A DNA stretch of 33,766 bases. Origin: Desulfamplus sp. GTDB taxonomy: Bacteria; Desulfobacterota; Desulfobacteria; Desulfobacterales; Desulfobacteraceae. Shown here one piece after another: positions 4,763-33,766 of this stretch. The stretch is from NCBI GenBank assembly GCA_015231705.1, contig JADGBC010000018.1, forward strand, positions 1 through 33,766, in the 5' to 3' direction. The notes beneath the pieces were generated by a model that was given only the letters and a program-made list of their open reading frames with translations, ran no database searches and was not told where the DNA came from. The position numbers were made by a program, and so were the translations under genes. Numbering within the stretch: the first letter of the stretch is position 1; every line of letters starts with the position of its first letter.

Positions 4763-5176
4763 TTATTTTCTGTGACACTCTCCACATACAACTGGCCCTT
4801 TTTCTCTAGAAAGATGGCAATCTCTGCATAGTTTATGATACTTTGCAGCAAGTCCGATATCCGTATTATTTGAGTTTTTACTATCTGCATGACACTCTGA
4901 ACAGGGTTGGCCTTCTGATGATTCATCCGGTACAAGTTCTTCATGTTCGTCATAGATATGGTGACATTCCGAACAGTTTTCTATACCAGCTGTCTCGTTG
5001 TGAATATCATGCTCAAAGCAGATAAAGGGCCTTGTATTGGTATTTTTATCAATACTTTCGTTGTTTATGTTGAAGCAGTCATCAGCATAAACTATTCCAG
5101 CAGACATAAGTATCAGACCAATACCTGTCACAAAAATAGATGTCAGAATAATAATATTATGTATGATTTTTTTCAT
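4763..5176 (-). CDS. tmcA: Tetraheme cytochrome c3 of the Tmc complex (TmcA-like)
   Basis: 137 residues from ATG 5176, preceded by GAGGAG about 11 bases upstream. A TTG-started extension to 5209 is unlikely because the ATG begins a clean signal peptide (KKIIHNIIILTS... ending AGIVYA|DD). The mature part has exactly four CxxCH haem sites, at Cys68-His72, Cys92-His96, Cys117-His121 and Cys131-His135. Axial-type histidines are in FEHDIHN, at His73 and at His114, the class III c3 pattern. The protein is periplasmic and would hand electrons from hydrogenases or other c3 proteins to TmcB/C/D. Extra Cys34 and Cys53 outside the haem motifs might form a disulfide. Confidence 0.85.
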   Translation of the reverse strand: MKKIIHNIIILTSIFVTGIGLILMSAGIVYADDCFNINNESIDKNTNTRPFICFEHDIHNETAGIENCSECHHIYDEHEELVPDESSEGQPCSECHADSKNSNNTDIGLAAKYHKLCRDCHLSREKGPVVCGECHRK

Positions 5177-5269
5177 TTTGAGTTCTTTCTCCTCTAATAA
5201 CTCAGGCAATTATTGAGTCCATTACTATCCCTTACGCTTATTACCAAAGGTACTCAATCTATGACTTTA

Positions 5270-6604
5270 TTATTCAGGCAATTCAAGAATCTCATAAATA
5301 ATATCACCAAAGAATTTGAGCTCCATCTCAACACCATAATGGTGGATAATATCTTCAAGCCCCCCATGACAGTTATGACATGGAGCAATAACCACCTCTG
5401 CACCTTTGGCCTTTGCTGCAAAAAGCTGCTTGGCTTTTTGCTTGCCGCTTTCCACTCTTGCGTTTTTAAAAGGGGGACCGCAGTTGATGACACCACCACC
5501 GGCACTGCAACAGTAGTTATGTTCTCTATTTGGGGTCATCTCTATAAAATTTTCACATGTGGCATTGACAATATTTCGTGCCATCTCATGGAGACCTCTG
5601 CCTCTTGAGATATTACAGGGGTCATGCAAGGTAACGGGCTGTTCAAATTTTTTCTTTATTTTAATTTTATTATTCTCAAAGAGTTCGTTGTAATATTCGA
5701 TGGCATGAACAACCTCTATCGGAGGCATTCTCCATCCTAAAGCACGATTTCCAACATCATAGACTGATCGGAATGCATGGCCACACTCTCCCATGACAAT
5801 CCGTTTTGCCCTTAAATTCAAAGCTGATTCAAAATGGCGTCTTTTGAGACGCTCCATCATCTCATAGTCTCCGGTGAACATGCACATATCACTGTTATCC
5901 CATCCGGGCATTGAAGGCATTGTCCAGTTTTCACCAGCGGCATTCATAATCACCGCTGCTTGAAATATAAGCTGAGCCCTGAATTTGGGCTCAGGCCCGA
6001 TTACAGAATAGAATATATCCGCTCCTTCCTTATCCAATGGAATCCTTAAATTTTCCATTGCATCCTGGGCCTCTTCCTCCTGCCACATCAAAGTATCAAT
6101 CCACTCATCATCTTTTACCCACATCTGATTCATGGTGACCGAATGGCTGTGGGCAGTATCTTGAATATAAAGTGGGACAACACCAAGTTTGTGGCAAATT
6201 CTGCGCATCACAGACATGACATAAGCCACATCAAGCCCAAACGGGCAATACATGGCACACCTTTTACACATATTGCACTGAGTGTAGGCAATAGTGGCTG
6301 CCTGCTTTATAAATTCAGGAGAGACCTTGCCCTTTTTACGCATTATCTCCCACAGGGTCTGCTTCACCTTTCCTGCCGGAGAGTATCTTGGATCATTAAG
6401 GGAGAGAAAAAAATGGCAACCTTTACTGCACATGCCGCAGTGCACACAAGTCTCCACATAAACTTTGAGCCTTGCTCCGGTTTCATCACTTAGCACTTGC
6501 TGGATAACACTCTCGATTTTCTCAGGAGTCAGCTGTTCCAAACCTTTTAAAATTCCCTGATCTTCTGTTTTTTTAGTCTCTGTGACCGATTTGGCTTCAG
6601 TCAT
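5270..6604 (-). CDS. tmcB: Tmc complex iron-sulfur/CCG protein (TmcB-like, HdrC-HdrB type)
   Basis: 444 residues from ATG 6604, with AAAGAGGTG just upstream; a GTG at 6613 overlaps that site and is rejected. Two [4Fe-4S] motifs are near the N-terminus (CVHCGMCSKGC; CNMCKRCAMYC). A CCG-type region follows, with Cys in GECGHAF, DPCNISRG, NYCCSAGGG and PCHNCHGG, as in HdrB/HdrD and TmcB, where such cysteines hold a special [4Fe-4S] cluster for thiol/disulfide chemistry. The usual CCG reads CCS here. It is probably cytoplasmic and membrane-attached through TmcC, between tmcC and tmcA. It shares its whole domain order with the UGA-interrupted protein at 27614-28906, whose UGA falls at the Cys of ECGH. 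Confidence 0.85.
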   Translation of the reverse strand: MTEAKSVTETKKTEDQGILKGLEQLTPEKIESVIQQVLSDETGARLKVYVETCVHCGMCSKGCHFFLSLNDPRYSPAGKVKQTLWEIMRKKGKVSPEFIKQAATIAYTQCNMCKRCAMYCPFGLDVAYVMSVMRRICHKLGVVPLYIQDTAHSHSVTMNQMWVKDDEWIDTLMWQEEEAQDAMENLRIPLDKEGADIFYSVIGPEPKFRAQLIFQAAVIMNAAGENWTMPSMPGWDNSDMCMFTGDYEMMERLKRRHFESALNLRAKRIVMGECGHAFRSVYDVGNRALGWRMPPIEVVHAIEYYNELFENNKIKIKKKFEQPVTLHDPCNISRGRGLHEMARNIVNATCENFIEMTPNREHNYCCSAGGGVINCGPPFKNARVESGKQKAKQLFAAKAKGAEVVIAPCHNCHGGLEDIIHHYGVEMELKFFGDIIYEILELPE

Positions 6605-6813
6605 GGTTAACACCTCTTTATTTTTCTTAAATATTTGACACTAATAAATATTATTGGTCTCGTAAAAAGGCCAGATTTAGTAATTTAGAATTTAGTAACT
6701 CACTAATTTTATTGCATGGTTATTTGGATAGATTGATTTTTTACAAGGTAATCAATATTATCAAATGTGAGTTTTTTGTGAGCAGCTCCGCTTTATTGGC
6801 GAATAGTTAAGAA

Positions 6814-25877: not shown

Positions 25878-26450
25878 ATGGAAGACACCATGACTGTATT
25901 TACCGCAAGCAAGTACTGCAATGTCTCATCCAAAACAATTATAAACTGGATTGATGCCGGCCACATCAAAGCCTACAAAACGGTGGGTGGACATCGAAGA
26001 ATCAAGAAAACCGACCTGGAAAATTTTATGGAAAACCAGGGCATACCTATTCCAAGAGCAAATGATGAGACAGCCAGAAAGAAAATTTTGGTTGTGGACG
26101 ATGACCTCATCATTGTTGAGTCCATTGTTCAGTGCCTTGAGGAGGATCAGTATGATTATGAAGTGATATCGGCTTCTGACGGATTTGAGGCAGGCCTTCA
26201 GGTCAACCATTTCAAACCGGATCTGCTCATACTTGATATAATGATGCCGGACATCAAAGGATATGAAGTGTGCAAAAAGATAAAATCCACCAAAGAGACC
26301 GAACATATCAAGATCATAGTCCTGTCTGCCTATCTGGACGATGAAAAATTTCAGCAGATGAAAGAAAATGGGGCAGATCTTTGTCTTTCAAAACCTTTAC
26401 CTCTATCTCGACTCAAAGATGAAGTGGCAATCCTTCTTGGGTTGAAATAG
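25878..26450 (+). CDS. MerR/excisionase-type HTH fused to a response-regulator receiver domain
   Basis: 190 residues. Residues 1-55 are a helix-turn-helix of the MerR/BldC/excisionase type (TASKYCNVSSKTIINWID, then KTVGGHRRIKKTDLENFM). A short linker leads to a receiver domain at about 67-190, with ILVVDDDLIIV, phospho-acceptor Asp in LLILDIMMP, the Ser in IIVLSAY and the Lys in LCLSKPLP. This domain order, DNA-binding first and receiver last, is the reverse of most response regulators. GGAGG lies eight bases before ATG 25878. It is upstream of the metF-hdr genes on the same strand and may control them. Confidence 0.85.
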   Translation: MEDTMTVFTASKYCNVSSKTIINWIDAGHIKAYKTVGGHRRIKKTDLENFMENQGIPIPRANDETARKKILVVDDDLIIVESIVQCLEEDQYDYEVISASDGFEAGLQVNHFKPDLLILDIMMPDIKGYEVCKKIKSTKETEHIKIIVLSAYLDDEKFQQMKENGADLCLSKPLPLSRLKDEVAILLGLK

Positions 26451-26615: not shown

Positions 26616-27494
26616 ATGAACCTGAAAGAATCCCTGGCAAAAAAGAAATTTGTTGTTACATCGGAAATTCAGGCTCCTCTTGGCGATGACAACCCTGAAG
26701 AGCTTGTCAACAGCCTTAAAAAAGTTAGGGGCAGAATAGACGGAGTGGCTGTTTCTGATATTGAACTTGAAGGGGTTGTGGGTGACAGTATCCAGACTTG
26801 CGATATTTTACGCCAAAACAGCTTCAATGCAATCTATCAGACCACAACCCGCGATAAAAACCGGTTCCAGCTTCAAAAGGATCTCACCCTTGCCCATGAG
26901 ACCGGCGTTGAAAATCTTCTGGTATTTACAGAAGATTACCGTATTTCAGGAGACAGTCTTCAGGAGTCCATGTTTTTTCATGTTGATTCAGGAAAACTTG
27001 CCTCAGTTCTGGAGCACATGAGAGAAGGTCAGACCATTGACGGCAATGCAATGGATAAAAAGATTGAATTTGTCCTTGGTTCAGGAGTGGAGACCCCCTG
27101 GGGAAAGAATATCCCCAAAAAAGGGATGGAAGAGATGGAAGATATGATGAACATAGGTACTGGCTATTTTCTTACCACTCCGATCTTTGATGTTGATCAG
27201 TTTGAAAAATTTATGAAACAGGTCAACACCTTTAATGTGCCTGTGATTGCAGAAGTAATGATTCTTCGTACAGGCGGAATGGGTAAATTTTTGAATCGCC
27301 ACTTCAAATCCGGCCTTGTGCCTGAATGGGCTATCCAGAAACTGCTCAAGGCTCCTGACAAGATGAAGGCAAGTATTGAACTCTTTACAGATACAGTAAA
27401 CAGCCTCAAAGACCTGTGTCAGGGAATTCACATTATTACCATTGGCGGAGAAGACAAGCTGGCACAATATCTAAATGCAGCCAAACTGAAATAA
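26616..27494 (+). CDS. metF: Methylenetetrahydrofolate reductase, MetF type
   Basis: 292 residues, the length of a MetF TIM barrel. It begins FVVTSEIQAPLGDDNPEEL, followed by GVAVSDIELEGV, YQTTTRDKNRFQLQKDL, TGYFLTTPIFDVDQFEKFM and a C-terminal IHIITIGGEDKLAQYL. These match the FAD-binding barrel that interconverts methylene- and methyl-tetrahydrofolate. GGAGG lies six bases before ATG 26616. Position directly before HdrCB- and HdrA-type genes recalls the metFV-hdrABC-mvhD cluster of acetogens such as Moorella, in which MetF passes electrons through Hdr modules. In a sulfate reducer it would serve the methyl branch of the Wood-Ljungdahl pathway, probably in the oxidative direction. No MetV partner is seen in the window. 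Confidence 0.85.
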   Translation: MNLKESLAKKKFVVTSEIQAPLGDDNPEELVNSLKKVRGRIDGVAVSDIELEGVVGDSIQTCDILRQNSFNAIYQTTTRDKNRFQLQKDLTLAHETGVENLLVFTEDYRISGDSLQESMFFHVDSGKLASVLEHMREGQTIDGNAMDKKIEFVLGSGVETPWGKNIPKKGMEEMEDMMNIGTGYFLTTPIFDVDQFEKFMKQVNTFNVPVIAEVMILRTGGMGKFLNRHFKSGLVPEWAIQKLLKAPDKMKASIELFTDTVNSLKDLCQGIHIITIGGEDKLAQYLNAAKLK

Positions 27495-27613
27495 TTTTTT
27501 CCTGATTTAAAAAAGTCACATAAGCACCGCTATTTAAAGAGACTTTCACATAAAATTTTCACGATAATGTAAAGATATCATTTTAAAGGCTGTAGTCAGG
27601 AGGAATAGTCAAT
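27495..27613. other. Gap between metF and the Hdr gene with a shared 20-mer
   Basis: This 119-base stretch has no gene. agactttcacataaaatttt at 27540-27559 is identical to 4349-4368, across the end of the response-regulator gene beside R2. The preceding aaagtcacata recalls the right end of R2. Confidence 0.45.
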
Positions 27614-28906
27614 ATGGCAGAGCCAATTAAACTTCAAGAATTTACATGCGATTTTAAAGAGGAGGTCGCAAACCGCATACCCGAGGCAAATTTTGATCTG
27701 TGCCTCACATGCGGAACATGCACAGGAGGATGTCCGGCATCTGAGCAGTATGGAATGGATCCAAGAAAATTTTTGCGGATGCTTCTTCTTGGAATGGACG
27801 ATGAAATAAGAAAAAGCCCGTGGGCATGGGTATGCACCATGTGCGGACGCTGCATGTCAGCCTGCCCCATGAAAATCAATATCCCCAAATTTATTTACAA
27901 TGTACGGGGAAGCTGGGATCGAGACAAGAGACCCAAAGGAATCAGGGGTTCTTGCGATCAACACATAAAATCGGGCAATGCCATGGGCGTTCCAAAAGAG
28001 GATTTTGTATTTACAGTCGAAGATGTGGCAAACGATATCAGAGAGGCAGAGCCAGAATTTAGCGATCTTGAAATTACAGCAGATCGGGCAGGAGCTTATA
28101 TGGCCTTGAACCAGAACTCCCGCGAGCCTGTAACAGAGCCGGATGAGCTTGGCCCGCTGTGGAAAATTCTGCACAAGGCAGGAGCAGACTGGACATATCC
28201 CACAGTCATGTGGGGCGGTGAGAACTACTGCATGTTTTTAGCTGATGACGAGGGGTGGAAATATATAATGGAGGAGTTTGTTCACCATATTGAACATAAC
28301 CTCAAAAGCAAGGTGGTGGTAAATACTGAGTGAGGCCACTCATACTTCTCAATCCTGGAAGGATTGAAAAAATACAAGATTCCCCACACCTTTGAATTTA
28401 AAAGCATACTTGAGCTTTATGCCCAGTGGATCAAAGATGGCACATTAAAGGTAAACTCTGACTGGAACAAGGATCTTAAGATCAAATTCACGGTTCAGGA
28501 TCCCTGCAACATCGGCAGAAAAATTGGCACGAACAAAATTGTGGACGACTTGCGTTTTGTGGTCAAAGCCGTTGTTGGTGAAGAGAATTTCGTAGATATG
28601 GTTCCCAACCGGTCAAATAATTTCTGCTGTGGAGGCGGCGGCGGAGCCCTTCAAGCCGGCCACACAGAACAGAGAAGAGCCTATGGAAAGGTTAAATTTG
28701 ATCAAATTATTGCGACCGGTGCCAAGTATGTAATAACTCCGTGCCACAATTGCCATGCCCAGATCGAAGATATGTGCCACCATTACGGCGGCGACTACCA
28801 CACTTTGCATCTTTGGACAATAATTGCACTTGCAATGGGAATGCTTGGCGAAAATGAACGCACATATCTCGGGCCGGATCTTGCTGATTTCGGTCTGGAC
28901 ACTTAA
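27614..28906 (+). CDS. Selenocysteine-containing HdrC-HdrB-type iron-sulfur/CCG protein (UGA at codon 240)
   Basis: 430 residues if TGA 28331-28333 is read as selenocysteine. N-terminal [4Fe-4S] motifs are Cys30/33/36/40 (CLTCGTCTGGC) and Cys74/77/80/84 (CTMCGRCMSAC). Next is U240 in the local string NTE-U-GHSYF, then the CCG-type ligands Cys298 (DPCNIGRK), Cys338-339 (FCCGGGGG) and Cys377/380 (PCHNCHAQ). The order and spacing match TmcB, with U240 at the place of its ECGHAF Cys. Both halves are in one frame with no other stop, the second half has no ATG or RBS of its own, and a hairpin follows the TGA. The likely role is thiol/disulfide or electron transfer within a MetF-Hdr complex. GGAGGA precedes ATG 27614; hdrA begins 11 bases after the stop. 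Confidence 0.82.
28349..28367 (+). promoter_or_regulatory. Candidate bacterial SECIS hairpin
   Basis: tcaatcc (28349-28355) and ggattga (28361-28367) form a perfect 7-bp stem around loop uggaa, which contains GG as in the loops of bacterial SECIS elements. It starts 15 nt after the TGA at 28331-28333. Two further U-A pairs below a bulged C are possible. It lies inside the coding sequence, as bacterial SECIS must. Confidence 0.7.
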
Positions 28907-28917
28907 GGAGGTATCCG

Positions 28918-31900
28918 ATGACTCATCAAAAAAACGGTGCGGTGCTGGTTGTGGGTGCTGGCATTGCCGGTATTCAGGCATCCCTTGACCTTGCGGATTC
29001 CGGATACCTTGTATATCTTGTTGACAGCGACTCGGCCATTGGCGGTGTCATGGCCAAACTTGACAAGACATTCCCCACAAATGACTGCTCCATGTGCATC
29101 ATCTCTCCAAAACTTGTAGAAGCAGGTCGCCATCTCAACATTGAACTTTTAAATAAAACCAGAGTGAAGGAGGTTTTAGGAACCTCTGGCAACTTCAAGG
29201 TAAAACTTCTCGAAGAGCCAAGATTTATTGACCTTGAGAAGTGTACAGCCTGCGGAGAGTGTGCAAATGTATGCCCTGTGGAGCTGCCAAGCCAGTTTGA
29301 TGAAAAGCTGTGCGATCGCAAAGCTGCTTTTAAACTCTATCCTCAAGCCATGCCAAGTGCGTATACAATTGAAAAAGGAGACAGAGCTCCCTGTAAGCTG
29401 ATCTGCCCTGCAGGATTGAATGTTCAAGGTTATGTCCAGATGGTAAAACAGGGCAAATACAAAGAGGCTCTTGAGATTATAATGGAGCAGCTACCACTTC
29501 CAGGGGTTTTGGGACGCATCTGCCCCCATGAGTGCGAAAATGGCTGCCGCCGTGGTGAGCTTGACCAACCGATTGCGATCAGGGATCTCAAGCGTCTTGC
29601 AGCAGACAGCTTTGATGCAAGACAGATAGAGATTGAGTGTGCCCCTTCAACAGGAAAAAAGGTGGCTATAATAGGTTCTGGCCCAGCCGGGCTATCTGCT
29701 GCCTACCATCTTGCTAAAAAAGGGATTCAATCAACCATATTTGAGGCTCTTTCAAAAGCTGGCGGAATGCTTCGGGTTGGAATTCCCGATCATCGTCTTC
29801 CGCCTGAAGTGCTTGACCGTGACATTGAAGTTATTACCAATCTCGGGGTGGAGATACGACTCAACACTCCACTTGGAATCGATCTCTCATCTGACGGATC
29901 AAACGCTCAAGGTCAAGATGTTACCATTGACTCTCTGCTTGCAGATGGTTTTGATGCTGTATTTCTTGGTATGGGTGCACACAAAGGTATTGATCTTGCC
30001 ATACCAGGGGATCACCTTGACGGAGTAAAGCAGGGGGTGGATTATTTAAGAGAGTTGAACCTTACAGGAACGACTGCTACCGGAAAAAAAGTTGCTGTAA
30101 TTGGTGGAGGAAATGTTGCGATAGATGTGGCAAGAAGTGCGGTGCGTCTTGGTGCTGAAGAGGTGACCATAATTTATCGCCGGACACGCAAGGAGATGCC
30201 GGCATGGGAAGAGGAGATCAGTGCGGCTGAAACTGAAGGTGTCAAGATAATCTACCTGTCTGCCCCTCAGCAGGCCATTGGAACAAGCACTGATGCATCA
30301 GGAAACCAGCAGGGAACCCTGTCAGCAGTCCGCTGCATAAGAATGGAACTTGGAGAGCCAGACTCATCAGGAAGACGCAGACCAGTTCCTGTTCCGGGAA
30401 GTGAATATGATCTTGAGGTTGATCAGCTCATATGTGCTATCGGCCAGCAGCCTGATGTCTCTTCACTCAAAAAGAGGGGTGGTAGTGTTAACGACACGAA
30501 TATTGATGGTGATGGTACAGGTGGTGAAATCAAGATAACAAAATGGGCTACAACCGAGGTAAATCCCATAACCTTTGAGACTGGAAAAAAAGCAGTTTTT
30601 GCCGGTGGAGATCTACAGACAGGCCCGGGAGTTGCTATCAGTGCTATTGCCGCAGGCATGGAGGCTGCTGAATCCATAGCAAGGTATCTCAAGGGCGAAG
30701 ATATGGCTCTTGGAAGAGAGCGTAACATCACCGAATCCCCAGATTATACACCTATTCTTGAAGATATGCCCAAAGCAAAGCGGGCAAAAGTAAGAGAACT
30801 CTCCATAGAGCAGAGAAAAGGCAATTTCAATGAGGTTGAGCTTGGACTTGATCAAGAGTCAGGCAAATACGAAGCTGACCGCTGCCTTAACTGCGGTTAC
30901 TGCTCCGAATGTATGGCCTGCGTGGATGCCTGTCTTGCCAATGCAGTTGACCATTCCATGATTCCAAAAGTTCATGAGATCGAGGTTGGAGCTGTAATTC
31001 TTGCCCCTGGATTTACCCCTTTTAATCCTGCTGTATATGAAACTTACGGTTATGGTACCCATCCAAATATTGTTACAAGTATTGAATTCGAGAGGCTTCT
31101 TTCCGCATCAGGCCCATACAAGGGACACCTTGTGAGGCCCTCGGACGAGACAGAGCCCAAAAAGATAGCATGGCTTCAATGTGTAGGATCAAGAGATATA
31201 AACAGAGGAGGACACAGTTACTGCTCCGGCGTCTGCTGCATGTATGCGAACAAACAGGCGGTAATCGCCAAAGAGCACAGTGACCATGAACTTGACACTG
31301 CAATCTTTTTTATGGACATGAGAACTCACGGAAAGGAGTTTGATAAATATAATATCAGAGCAGAAGATGAAAGCGGTGTAAGATTTGTACGCTCCAGAAT
31401 CCACTCCATATTTCCCATGAGAGATGACAGACTGCGTATAGTCTATGCCACTGAATCTGGCTCAACTGCTGAAGAGATATTTGATATAGTAGTTCTGTCA
31501 ATAGGTCTTGCACCTTGTTCGGATGCTGTTGAACTTGCAAATGTGATGGGAATTGAACTTAACCGCCACCAGTTTGCAAAGACATCGAGCCTTGCTCCTG
31601 TGACAACAACAAAAGATGGAGTCTATGTATGCGGAGCATTCCAGGAGCCAAAAGATATTCCAATGTCAGTAATGGAGGCATCAGCCGCTGCTGCAATGGC
31701 AGCTCAAACTCTTGCGGATCAAAGATGGAGCCTGACCCGAACCAAAGAGCTACCACCGGAAAGGGATTTCTCCGGAATGTCACCGAGTATCGGCGTATTT
31801 GTATGCAACTGCGGAATCAACATAGGCGGGATTGCAGATGTTCCGGCAGTACGCGATTATGCTGCCACCCTGCCCTATGTAACCCATGTTGAGGATAATC

Positions 31901-33639
31901 TTTTTACCTGTTCTCAGGATTCCCAGGATCATATGAAAAAAGTGATCCTTGAAAAGAATATCAACCGCGTGGTGGTCGCATCCTGCTCTCCAAGAACCCA
32001 TGAACCACTGTTTCAGGAGACAATAAGAGAGGCAGGACTCAACAAGTATCTGTTTGAAATGGCAAATATAAGAGACCAAAATACTTGGGTTCATATGAAC
32101 AGCCCTGAAAAAGCGACCCAGAAGGCAAAGGAGTTGGTTCGGATGGCTGTTGCAAAAGCCGCTCATGTTGAGCCTTTGCATCAGGTAAAACTTGCCATCA
32201 AAAAATCGGTACTGGTTATAGGAGGAGGTATCTCCGGTATGGAAGCCGCTTTAAGTGTTGCTGATCAAGGTTTCAAAGCCATTCTTGTCGAGAAGAGCGA
32301 ATCTCTTGGCGGCAATGCGACCAAATTAAGAGCCACATGGCAGGGAGAGCCTATTCAGCCCTGGCTCAATCATCTTATAACAAGGGTAAGCGACAACCCC
32401 AATATTGAGCTCTATCTTGATACTGAGGTAAAAAGCACCACCGGAACTCTGGGTAATTTTATAACAACGCTATCATCTTGCATATCCAAAGATTCAGGTT
32501 CCTCAAAATCCACAGATTCAACAACTTTACAAAAATCGGCTGAATCTGCAAGCTCACAATCAACAGAGTCAGGTGCTTTAAAACACACAGATTCTGCAAA
32601 AAGTAAATTAACAGGTTCAGGGATTTCATACCTTACAACAATCGAGCATGGTGCAGCAATCATTGCCACAGGCGGCAAAGAGGATAAACCAACTGAGTAT
32701 CTATATGGAGAGCATCCTGATGTATTGACTCACCTGGATATGGATCAGGTGTTAGAGTATGGCACCAAAAGAATCGCAAAGGTAAAAACAGTTGTTTTTA
32801 TCCAGTGCGTAGGCTCAAGAAATAGTGACAAACCTTATTGCAGCAAAATCTGCTGTACCCATAGCCTGAAAAGTGCCATTGAGGTGAAAAAGAGAAGACC
32901 ATCAGCACGAGTTTATATCATTTACAGGGATATCCGCTCTTATGGATTCAGAGAAGATCTTTATCAGGAAGCACGTCAGAAAGGCATTATATTTATCAGG
33001 TATGATCTTGAAAAAATGCCTCAGGTTAAGGCTGTCAAGAGACAGGAGACAGAAGAGAGTGTTTACAGATATGATAAGGACAAGTATGGAAATCTTGAAC
33101 TTACGGTCATTGATCATGTTCTGAGGATGCCGGTCAAGATAAATCCTGATCTTCTTGTTCTTGCATCAGGCATTGTCCCCAATGCAAATAAACATCTGTT
33201 TGAGGCATTTAAAATTCCGGTAAATGCAGATGGATTCCTTGTGGAGGCTCATGCGAAACTCAGGCCGGTTGACTTTGCCTCAGATGGTCTTTTTGTGGCA
33301 GGTCTTGCCCATTACCCCAAACCTCTTGAGGAGTGCATAGCTCAGGCAAAAGCGGCAGTATCAAGAGCAATGAGGATTGTATCTCGTGATTCTATCATGG
33401 TTGGCGGTGTGGTGGCTGTTGTACAGCCTGAGAAGTGTGCGGTATGTCTTACCTGCGTGAGAACCTGTCCATACGAGATACCATATATCCATCAAGACGG
33501 GTATGCTGTAATTGACCCTGGTGAGTGTCACGGCTGCGGTCTTTGCGTATCAGAGTGCCCTGGTAAGGCAATCAGGCTAAATCACTTTACAGATGATCAG
33601 ATCATGGCAAAAACAGATGCTCTGTTCAAGGTTGCGTGA
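28918..33639 (+). CDS. hdrA: Large HdrA fusion: HdrA - NfnB/GltD-like - HdrA
   Basis: 1573 residues, much longer than a single HdrA (about 650). An N-terminal HdrA FAD part has VVGAGIAGIQASLDL and TNDCSMCIISPK, with a ferredoxin-like CTACGECANVCP at Cys109. A GltD/NfnB-like insert runs from about residue 158 to 610: CKLICPAGLNVQGYV (Fer4_20 type), IIGSGPAGLSAAYHLA for FAD, IGGGNVAIDVARSAV for NAD(P)H. HdrA then resumes with CLNCGYCSEC and LQCVGSRD...YCSGVCC. A second HdrA module starts near 1100 (VIGGGISGMEAAL), with a second CVGSR...YCSKICC and two C-terminal [4Fe-4S] motifs (CAVCLTCVRTCP, CHGCGLCVSECP). It probably bifurcates electrons between ferredoxin, NAD(P)H and the HdrCB protein. AAGGAGGT lies six bases before ATG 28918. 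Confidence 0.88.
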   Translation: MTHQKNGAVLVVGAGIAGIQASLDLADSGYLVYLVDSDSAIGGVMAKLDKTFPTNDCSMCIISPKLVEAGRHLNIELLNKTRVKEVLGTSGNFKVKLLEEPRFIDLEKCTACGECANVCPVELPSQFDEKLCDRKAAFKLYPQAMPSAYTIEKGDRAPCKLICPAGLNVQGYVQMVKQGKYKEALEIIMEQLPLPGVLGRICPHECENGCRRGELDQPIAIRDLKRLAADSFDARQIEIECAPSTGKKVAIIGSGPAGLSAAYHLAKKGIQSTIFEALSKAGGMLRVGIPDHRLPPEVLDRDIEVITNLGVEIRLNTPLGIDLSSDGSNAQGQDVTIDSLLADGFDAVFLGMGAHKGIDLAIPGDHLDGVKQGVDYLRELNLTGTTATGKKVAVIGGGNVAIDVARSAVRLGAEEVTIIYRRTRKEMPAWEEEISAAETEGVKIIYLSAPQQAIGTSTDASGNQQGTLSAVRCIRMELGEPDSSGRRRPVPVPGSEYDLEVDQLICAIGQQPDVSSLKKRGGSVNDTNIDGDGTGGEIKITKWATTEVNPITFETGKKAVFAGGDLQTGPGVAISAIAAGMEAAESIARYLKGEDMALGRERNITESPDYTPILEDMPKAKRAKVRELSIEQRKGNFNEVELGLDQESGKYEADRCLNCGYCSECMACVDACLANAVDHSMIPKVHEIEVGAVILAPGFTPFNPAVYETYGYGTHPNIVTSIEFERLLSASGPYKGHLVRPSDETEPKKIAWLQCVGSRDINRGGHSYCSGVCCMYANKQAVIAKEHSDHELDTAIFFMDMRTHGKEFDKYNIRAEDESGVRFVRSRIHSIFPMRDDRLRIVYATESGSTAEEIFDIVVLSIGLAPCSDAVELANVMGIELNRHQFAKTSSLAPVTTTKDGVYVCGAFQEPKDIPMSVMEASAAAAMAAQTLADQRWSLTRTKELPPERDFSGMSPSIGVFVCNCGINIGGIADVPAVRDYAATLPYVTHVEDNLFTCSQDSQDHMKKVILEKNINRVVVASCSPRTHEPLFQETIREAGLNKYLFEMANIRDQNTWVHMNSPEKATQKAKELVRMAVAKAAHVEPLHQVKLAIKKSVLVIGGGISGMEAALSVADQGFKAILVEKSESLGGNATKLRATWQGEPIQPWLNHLITRVSDNPNIELYLDTEVKSTTGTLGNFITTLSSCISKDSGSSKSTDSTTLQKSAESASSQSTESGALKHTDSAKSKLTGSGISYLTTIEHGAAIIATGGKEDKPTEYLYGEHPDVLTHLDMDQVLEYGTKRIAKVKTVVFIQCVGSRNSDKPYCSKICCTHSLKSAIEVKKRRPSARVYIIYRDIRSYGFREDLYQEARQKGIIFIRYDLEKMPQVKAVKRQETEESVYRYDKDKYGNLELTVIDHVLRMPVKINPDLLVLASGIVPNANKHLFEAFKIPVNADGFLVEAHAKLRPVDFASDGLFVAGLAHYPKPLEECIAQAKAAVSRAMRIVSRDSIMVGGVVAVVQPEKCAVCLTCVRTCPYEIPYIHQDGYAVIDPGECHGCGLCVSECPGKAIRLNHFTDDQIMAKTDALFKVA
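32491..32622 (+). repeat. In-frame 24-bp minisatellite in the second HdrA module
   Basis: Five units of about 24 bases, each starting ga(t/a/g)tc and mostly ending aca, encode the octads DSGSSKST, DSTTLQKSA (9), ESASSQST, ESGALKHT and DSAKSKLT, followed by GSG (residues about 1192-1235). They are inserted between beta strands (NFITTLSS and IEHGAAIIATGG) that are normally almost adjacent in HdrA. Confidence 0.75.
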
Positions 33640-33747: not shown

Positions 33748-33766
33748 ATGAATACCTCTTTTGAAC
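33748..33766 (+). CDS. Start of the next gene, possibly mvhD (partial)
   Basis: ATG 33748 with GGAG about eight bases upstream starts MNTSFE and runs off the window. In comparable loci the gene after hdrA is mvhD, whose product often starts with a short acidic tail before the FCCNWC motif. Only six residues are visible, so this is inference from context. Confidence 0.4.

Follow-up and report, generated by a model that had tools for sequence, protein, structure and literature searches.

Does a TGA that parts two open reading frames of one frame end a gene, or is it read as selenocysteine (Sec) within a single iron-sulfur protein, and if so, what might Sec do there? A locus of Desulfamplus sp. 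raises this question in the 33,766 nucleotides that we analysed (the window), where an initial annotation had proposed Sec in an HdrC/HdrB-type protein of a MetF-Hdr locus.

A TGA inside a conserved reading frame

The two ORFs do share one frame, as had been noted: it runs on the plus strand for 430 codons, from ATG 27614 to TAA 28904-28906, and the only in-frame TGA inside it is codon 240 at 28331-28333, which would give the product the stretch VVNTE-Sec-GHSY. A likely ribosome binding site of this hdrD-type gene (27614-28906), AGGAGG, lies at 27598-27603 on the same strand. Since the TGA splits the ORF, the gene tends to be called as two. The claim that the downstream part lacks its own start codon and ribosome binding site holds only in part, as there is a mechanical in-frame start, TTG 28364. 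The sole Shine-Dalgarno-like stretch there, GGAAGGA at 28357-28363, lies inside the stem-loop described below and abuts this TTG with zero spacing, which makes it an unlikely ribosome site.

Homologues from a scan of genome contigs (80 loci, the best 80 of 200 confirmed relatives) carry either TGA (59) or a cysteine codon (TGC in 15, TGT in 6) in the TGA column, and no other codon. This stop is therefore not the invariable end of the homologues: with Cys in its place, 21 of the 80 read through. The TGA is also present in the cultured strains Desulfocicer vacuolatum, Desulfosarcina widdelii, Desulfosarcina alkanivorans and Desulfatitalea alkaliphila. An order-wide search found a match in 139 of 194 genomes (threshold E up to 1e-110), and among the matches listed 14 rows had at least 68% identity, 12 of them with one TGA (one also with a TAG) and two without any stop. 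These two, L114 and L115, belong to the same metF operon and have TGC at the Sec codon, so that the operon exists in a Sec and a Cys version. On either of two trees the Sec/Cys label requires four changes, and the forks joining L114 and L115 have support of 89/69 and 89/59. As the initial annotation had it, the residue at the TGA also aligns with a conserved Cys of TmcB; this Cys belongs to the motif GECGH in the TmcB that the window encodes.

Purifying selection is similar on the two sides of the TGA: in seven comparisons dN was 0.011-0.136 upstream versus 0.009-0.112 downstream, whereas dS was saturated or much larger. An eighth comparison (L009) was omitted and its upstream value dropped because that locus is longer and its upstream part is out of register.

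The main alternative is that the TGA is a true stop between two separate genes, the second starting from TTG 28364. It can draw on the mechanical ORF with GGAAGGA just before it, on three homologues with a start codon at this place (ATG after GGAAGGA in L061 and L066, TTG in L070), and on the fact that HdrB and HdrC are distinct chains in solved Hdr structures. However, the break falls inside the HdrB part (residues 161-424) and not between it and the HdrC part (26-130), and 19 of 22 rows of a second subfamily have CTG or CTC in place of the TTG and no GGAAGGA. Furthermore, G241 and H242 are invariant in an alignment of 60 proteins (that of the window and those of 59 of the 80 loci; alignment A3), although they lie between the TGA and the TTG. 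Together with the Cys homologues that read through and the like selection on both halves, this led us to reject two separate genes as highly improbable. A sequencing error or a decaying pseudogene is scarcely credible, since the genome is indeed a MAG of 74.9% completeness but the same TGA recurs in 59 of 80 loci, among them those of cultured strains, which refutes it for the family. General recoding of TGA seems unlikely, as at least one other gene of the window, hdrL, itself ends in TGA (33637-33639).

The downstream stem-loop and the selenocysteine machinery

A putative SECIS stem-loop begins 15 nt 3' of the TGA, on the plus strand, with 28349-28356 pairing with 28360-28367 around a GGA loop (28357-28359); its folding z-score against shuffles is -2.96. 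The position and the GG-containing loop are thus as previously described, and the stem is 8 bp long, not 7. For covariation we used 40 TGA rows, namely the window and 39 of the 59 TGA loci, picked for spread. In these, 93.8% of the cells in the stem columns pair, as compared to 47.8% for the best slid partner, and there are 49 double-change cells against a shuffle mean of 21.1, with none of 500 shuffles as high. Two cruder measures on the same 40 rows (double-change pairs and further pair types) showed no excess over shuffles. Across all 21 Cys loci, 53.0% of the cells in these columns pair, against 54.3% on average in shuffles. When the full set of 81 rows is counted, 58 of the 60 TGA rows form all seven inner pairs, as does one of the 21 Cys rows (L026). 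The stem also encodes residue 248, which is W or Y in 21 of 21 Cys loci and L, R or Q in 59 of 59 TGA loci; these counts, like those of pairing, come from related rows and do not represent independent events. As the Cys copies L114 and L115 have TGG (Trp) and TAC (Tyr) at codon 248, this mark tracks Sec status within one clade too. The alignments thus indicate that TGA copies have preserved the stem-loop through compensatory changes, whereas Cys copies have not. L114 and L115 retain five of the eight stem pairs each, and the 3' arm also encodes conserved residues; this gives at best a faint hint of a fossil SECIS in these TGC copies. A scan of the window against Rfam at the gathering threshold gave no match. 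Bacterial SECIS elements are gene-specific, and for this reason we do not count the null result against one.

The Sec reading further depends on whether the host has the machinery. In the host genome, a MAG of 282 contigs, we found selB (359 bits, cut-off 242), selA (581 bits, cut-off 268), selD (368 bits, cut-off 125) and tRNA-Sec (73.8 bits, cut-off 47), and an absence of selB and selC, which would have spoken against Sec, is thus not what we see. Among 14 control genomes weak matches were common, and matches over the cut-off were found for selB in two, selA in one, selD in two and tRNA-Sec in five. The host selD (L096, G000:C44:9780-10706) has one in-frame TGA itself, and it is therefore probably a selenoprotein gene.

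Overall, the sequence comparisons indicate that the locus has the features of a bacterial selenoprotein gene: a TGA amid conserved coding sequence, Cys homologues, a selected stem-loop and sel genes in the genome. Sec had been proposed from the window alone, and codon alternation, stem conservation, selection and the sel genes now support it. We consider it very probable that UGA 28331 is read as Sec and that the product is an HdrD-type fused HdrC-HdrB protein. The resident SelA, SelB, SelD and tRNA-Sec would then decode this UGA, directed by the stem-loop 15 nt downstream.

An HdrD-type protein in a metF operon

The product matches Fer4_8 and one complete CCG domain over the Pfam cut-offs, and HdrC and HdrB chains with E-values of 4e-14 and 1.8e-5; an HdrC-type dicluster domain and a CCG domain in one chain are what identifies it as an HdrD-type fusion. 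Scores well below the curated NCBIfam cut-offs for TmcB (170 versus 735 bits), HmcF (175 versus 750) and DsrK (113 versus 400) make it a relative of these proteins and not a member. A structure model (pLDDT 85.6, pTM 0.86) matched EtfD of Mycobacterium smegmatis (9ojn) over residues 13-428 (Z 25.2, 2.8 A, 367 aligned) and HdrB chains with Z of 20.6-21.6. The remaining Fe-S ligands were said to be retained, and indeed C30/33/36/40, C74/77/80/84, C298, C338, C339, C377 and C380 are invariant in the 60 proteins of A3.

HdrB has two complete CCG motifs and two noncubane clusters. Here the second motif is complete and the first keeps only C206 and Sec240; apart from C206, no Cys from residue 115 to residue 297 is invariant in A3. 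Profile alignment with PDB chains sets T-E-C240-G-H242-S243-F against T-C581-P-H583-C584-F of EtfD and T-E-C78-N-G-C81-F of Methanothermobacter marburgensis HdrB (printed numbering). This would place Sec240 at EtfD Cys581 and HdrB Cys78, and H242 at EtfD His583, and it indicates that S243 stands at EtfD Cys584 and replaces the bridging Cys (HdrB Cys81). In EtfD, Cys581 and Cys584 bind a linear [3Fe-4S] cluster and His583 completes the noncubane cluster; in HdrB, Cys81 is a bridging Cys at a catalytic iron (sections of PMC13083937). C206 corresponds to EtfD Cys538 by position only, as the profile alignments did not reach it, and a profile comparison with an HdrB of the host genome (L121) aligned only the second CCG domain. 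Because S243 replaces Cys, only C206 is left and the Cys residues of the second domain are intact, the first noncubane cluster has probably been lost, with Sec240 and C206 likely to adjoin the one that remains.

The MetF-Hdr context of the initial annotation is real. Upstream of hdrD lies metF1 (26616-27494, plus strand, 292 aa), of the MTHFR family (PF02219, 62.8 bits, cut-off 24). Downstream follows hdrL (28918-33639, plus strand, 1573 aa), an HdrA into which an NAD(P)H/glutamate-synthase-like module is inserted, according to its NCBIfam matches (HdrA2 model 909.8 bits, below the cut-off of 1100; NAD(P)-binding PRK12771 517.9, cut-off 516). The last bases of the window (33748-33766, plus strand) are the first codons of mvhD, as judged from the likeness of MNTSFE to the MNSSFE with which mvhD of the relative L108 begins; only 19 bases of this gene are present because the contig (C99:1-33766) ends there. 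Ahead of metF1 is a putative operon regulator with HTH_17 and receiver domains (25878-26450, plus strand). Of the 80 loci, 18 have a metF1 of at least 65% identity upstream of hdrD, and every one of these carries TGA; another close copy, L025, has its start near the edge of a contig.

The full operon, in the order regulator-metF1-hdrD(Sec)-hdrL-mvhD(Sec)-metV-metF2, is seen in relatives. In the regions of eight of them, the regulator, metF1, hdrD with its TGA and hdrL follow in this order in all eight, mvhD in seven, and metV and metF2 in six; two regions are without metV and metF2, one of these also without mvhD, and the hdr-mvhD-metV-metF set is thus complete in six. Six further regions, including two Cys versions, keep the order as far as their stretches reach, L116 being without mvhD after hdrL. 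The domains of the L108 gene set were confirmed by Pfam.

Several observations concern the neighbouring genes in their own right. Each of the 11 mvhD genes found carries a single in-frame TGA, in nine at a CCxYU site together with AGC(L/M)EGEC (L106-L108, L110, L113-L115, L117, L118) and in two at AGULEGEC together with CCxYC (L109, L111). Each TGA is followed by a stem-like sequence of its own, as judged by eye, and from these sequences Sec seems to change place within MvhD. MetF1 has about 20-25% identity to MetF2, which follows MetV (window gene 26616-27494; L106-L108, L110, L111, L113), and MTHFR scores of 62.8 bits (window) and 57.1 bits (L108) versus 156.3 bits for MetF2 (L108). Given this low identity and weak score, MetF1 may have another job. 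The regulator at 25878-26450 joins an excisionase/MerR-like helix-turn-helix to a receiver domain, and an ORF of about 618 aa (x618) lies near it in several regions. Elsewhere in the window, on the minus strand, the TmcB ORF (5270-6613) reaches 826 bits with the TmcB model, whose cut-off is 735, and just downstream of it an ORF at 4763-5209 has four CxxCH motifs and looks like a small multihaem protein.

Known relatives and the possible chemistry of Sec240

Sec in this kind of protein is already known. A 2006 paper described selenoproteins among the GlpC-type Fe-S oxidoreductases of operons linked to Hdr (PMC1794560), a 2009 paper reported that HdrD4 of Desulfobacterium autotrophicum HRM2 contains Sec (PMC2702500), and a 2026 review lists a GlpC-like selenoprotein family with the motif UGH (PMC13188914). 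The GlpC selenoproteins of Deltaproteobacteria (COG0247/PTHR43551) share the UGH motif, the Fe-S/CCG make-up and, as here, neighbouring genes for HdrA and for an MvhD/FrhD-type selenoprotein (passages of PMC1794560, PMC13188914 and PMC9312934). The hdrD product has this motif in a protein with Fer4 and CCG domains, the family being compared by its motif as printed in PMC13188914. The likeness to HdrD4 rests on its description: Sec in HdrD, and HdrC- and HdrB-like domains without a membrane part in the products of hdrD1 to hdrD4 (PMC2702500). Thus, the initial annotation went too far in setting this subunit apart from the known GlpC-like selenoproteins, as it looks like one of that kind.

There are differences in context. 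The GlpC operons in the published descriptions read glpC-hdrA-frhD-frhG-frhA, with a hydrogenase, whereas the partners here are MetF, HdrL, MvhD and MetV. HRM2 hdrD4 is not placed beside metF in the relevant text of PMC2702500, and a MAG named D. autotrophicum (G011, L030) carries Cys in its copy, with no metF1 match better than 28%. A metF adjoining HdrABC has been noted in Seep-SRB1g, in a passage that does not mention Sec (PMC10553843). The gene set of the relatives is the same as in the Hdr-type MTHFR of Moorella thermoacetica and Sporomusa ovata, HdrBCA-MvhD-MetVF (PMC9430772), and the marine Chloroflexi DscP3 likewise has a fused hdrC-hdrB and two metF (PMC5736913). Compared with known Hdr-type MTHFRs, the operon described here has Sec in HdrD and MvhD, the HdrL form of HdrA, a degenerate first CCG domain and an extra MetF1 leading the operon. 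EtfD shares the fold, the noncubane ligands and the His equivalent; on the other hand, it has Cys where the hdrD product has Sec, is membrane-bound and carries a linear [3Fe-4S] with four Cys ligands, not all of which are present here (structural account in PMC13083937). In the main text of CC-licensed PMC papers, as far as covered, we found no statement of a Sec-HdrD in a metF operon. On that coverage, what appears new is this metF operon context, a smaller novelty than had been claimed.

We infer that this operon encodes an Hdr-type methylene-THF reductase in selenoprotein form, with the hdrD product as its terminal Fe-S subunit. This product would be a single 430-residue HdrC-HdrB fusion with two cubane [4Fe-4S] clusters bound via C30-C84 and one noncubane [4Fe-4S] cluster bound by C298, C338, C339, C377 and C380, probably also by H242. 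Electrons would pass between MvhD and HdrL, with its flavins and NAD(P)H module, and from there to HdrD and on to MetF. An analogous association is known from the distant organism S. ovata, where pulldowns of HdrB with MetF and of MvhD with MetF have been reported (results given in PMC9430772). Sec240 would sit in the degenerate first CCG domain, two residues before the equivalent of the histidine that ligates the noncubane cluster. We tentatively suggest, with somewhat less than even confidence, that Sec240, perhaps with the invariant Cys206, tunes or joins the redox chemistry at this cluster.

Two more specific versions of this chemistry deserve consideration. Sec240 and Cys206 could form a selenenylsulfide/dithiol pair that, together with the noncubane cluster, serves to reduce or to oxidise a thiol partner such as DsrC. 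Both residues are invariant in the 60 proteins, and TmcB has Cys at both positions; the CCG domain of HdrB and TmcB is predicted to interact with DsrC (a section of PMC10553843), and for the S. ovata enzyme a co-reductant of the dithiol type has been considered (PMC9430772). However, dihydrolipoate and glutathione gave no rate increase in S. ovata (assays reported in the same paper), the operon genes identified in the eight and six regions of relatives do not include dsrC, and the CCG clusters of EtfD are described as electron-transfer clusters (PMC13083937), which leaves such a pair possible but doubtful. In the other version, Sec240 is a plain ligand of an extra cluster in the first CCG domain, and Sec merely shifts its potential. 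Its position is that of EtfD Cys581 and HdrB Cys78, and EtfD Cys581 is itself a ligand of the linear [3Fe-4S] (PMC13083937), yet with S243 in place of EtfD Cys584 and C206 as the only other invariant Cys in residues 115-297, two ligands are left versus four in EtfD, and we regard a plain ligand as rather unlikely. Extending the idea of a redox-active pair, one may speculate that this is a two-selenoprotein MTHFR complex in which Sec240 and Cys206 of HdrD take the place of one of the two noncubane clusters of ordinary Hdr, make up an active site of cluster and selenol, and couple methyl-THF chemistry to a thiol partner, which on the present sequences is an outside chance.

The case merits the attention of specialists for the chemistry of the Sec site and for the Sec and Cys versions of one operon, even if the surprise is moderate. 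For annotation, it is an example of a very probable selenoprotein gene that is split by a TGA and liable to be called as two genes. Additionally, Sec at a degenerate CCG site offers a spectroscopic handle (77Se) on the function of that site, and the Cys versions of the same operon in L114 and L115 provide a natural Sec/Cys pair with which to probe it. The discussion in PMC9430772 leaves open which second electron partner Hdr-type methylene-THF reductases use. If the coupling to a thiol partner were true, the Sec240/Cys206 site would name this second partner for the Hdr-type MTHFRs of sulfate reducers.
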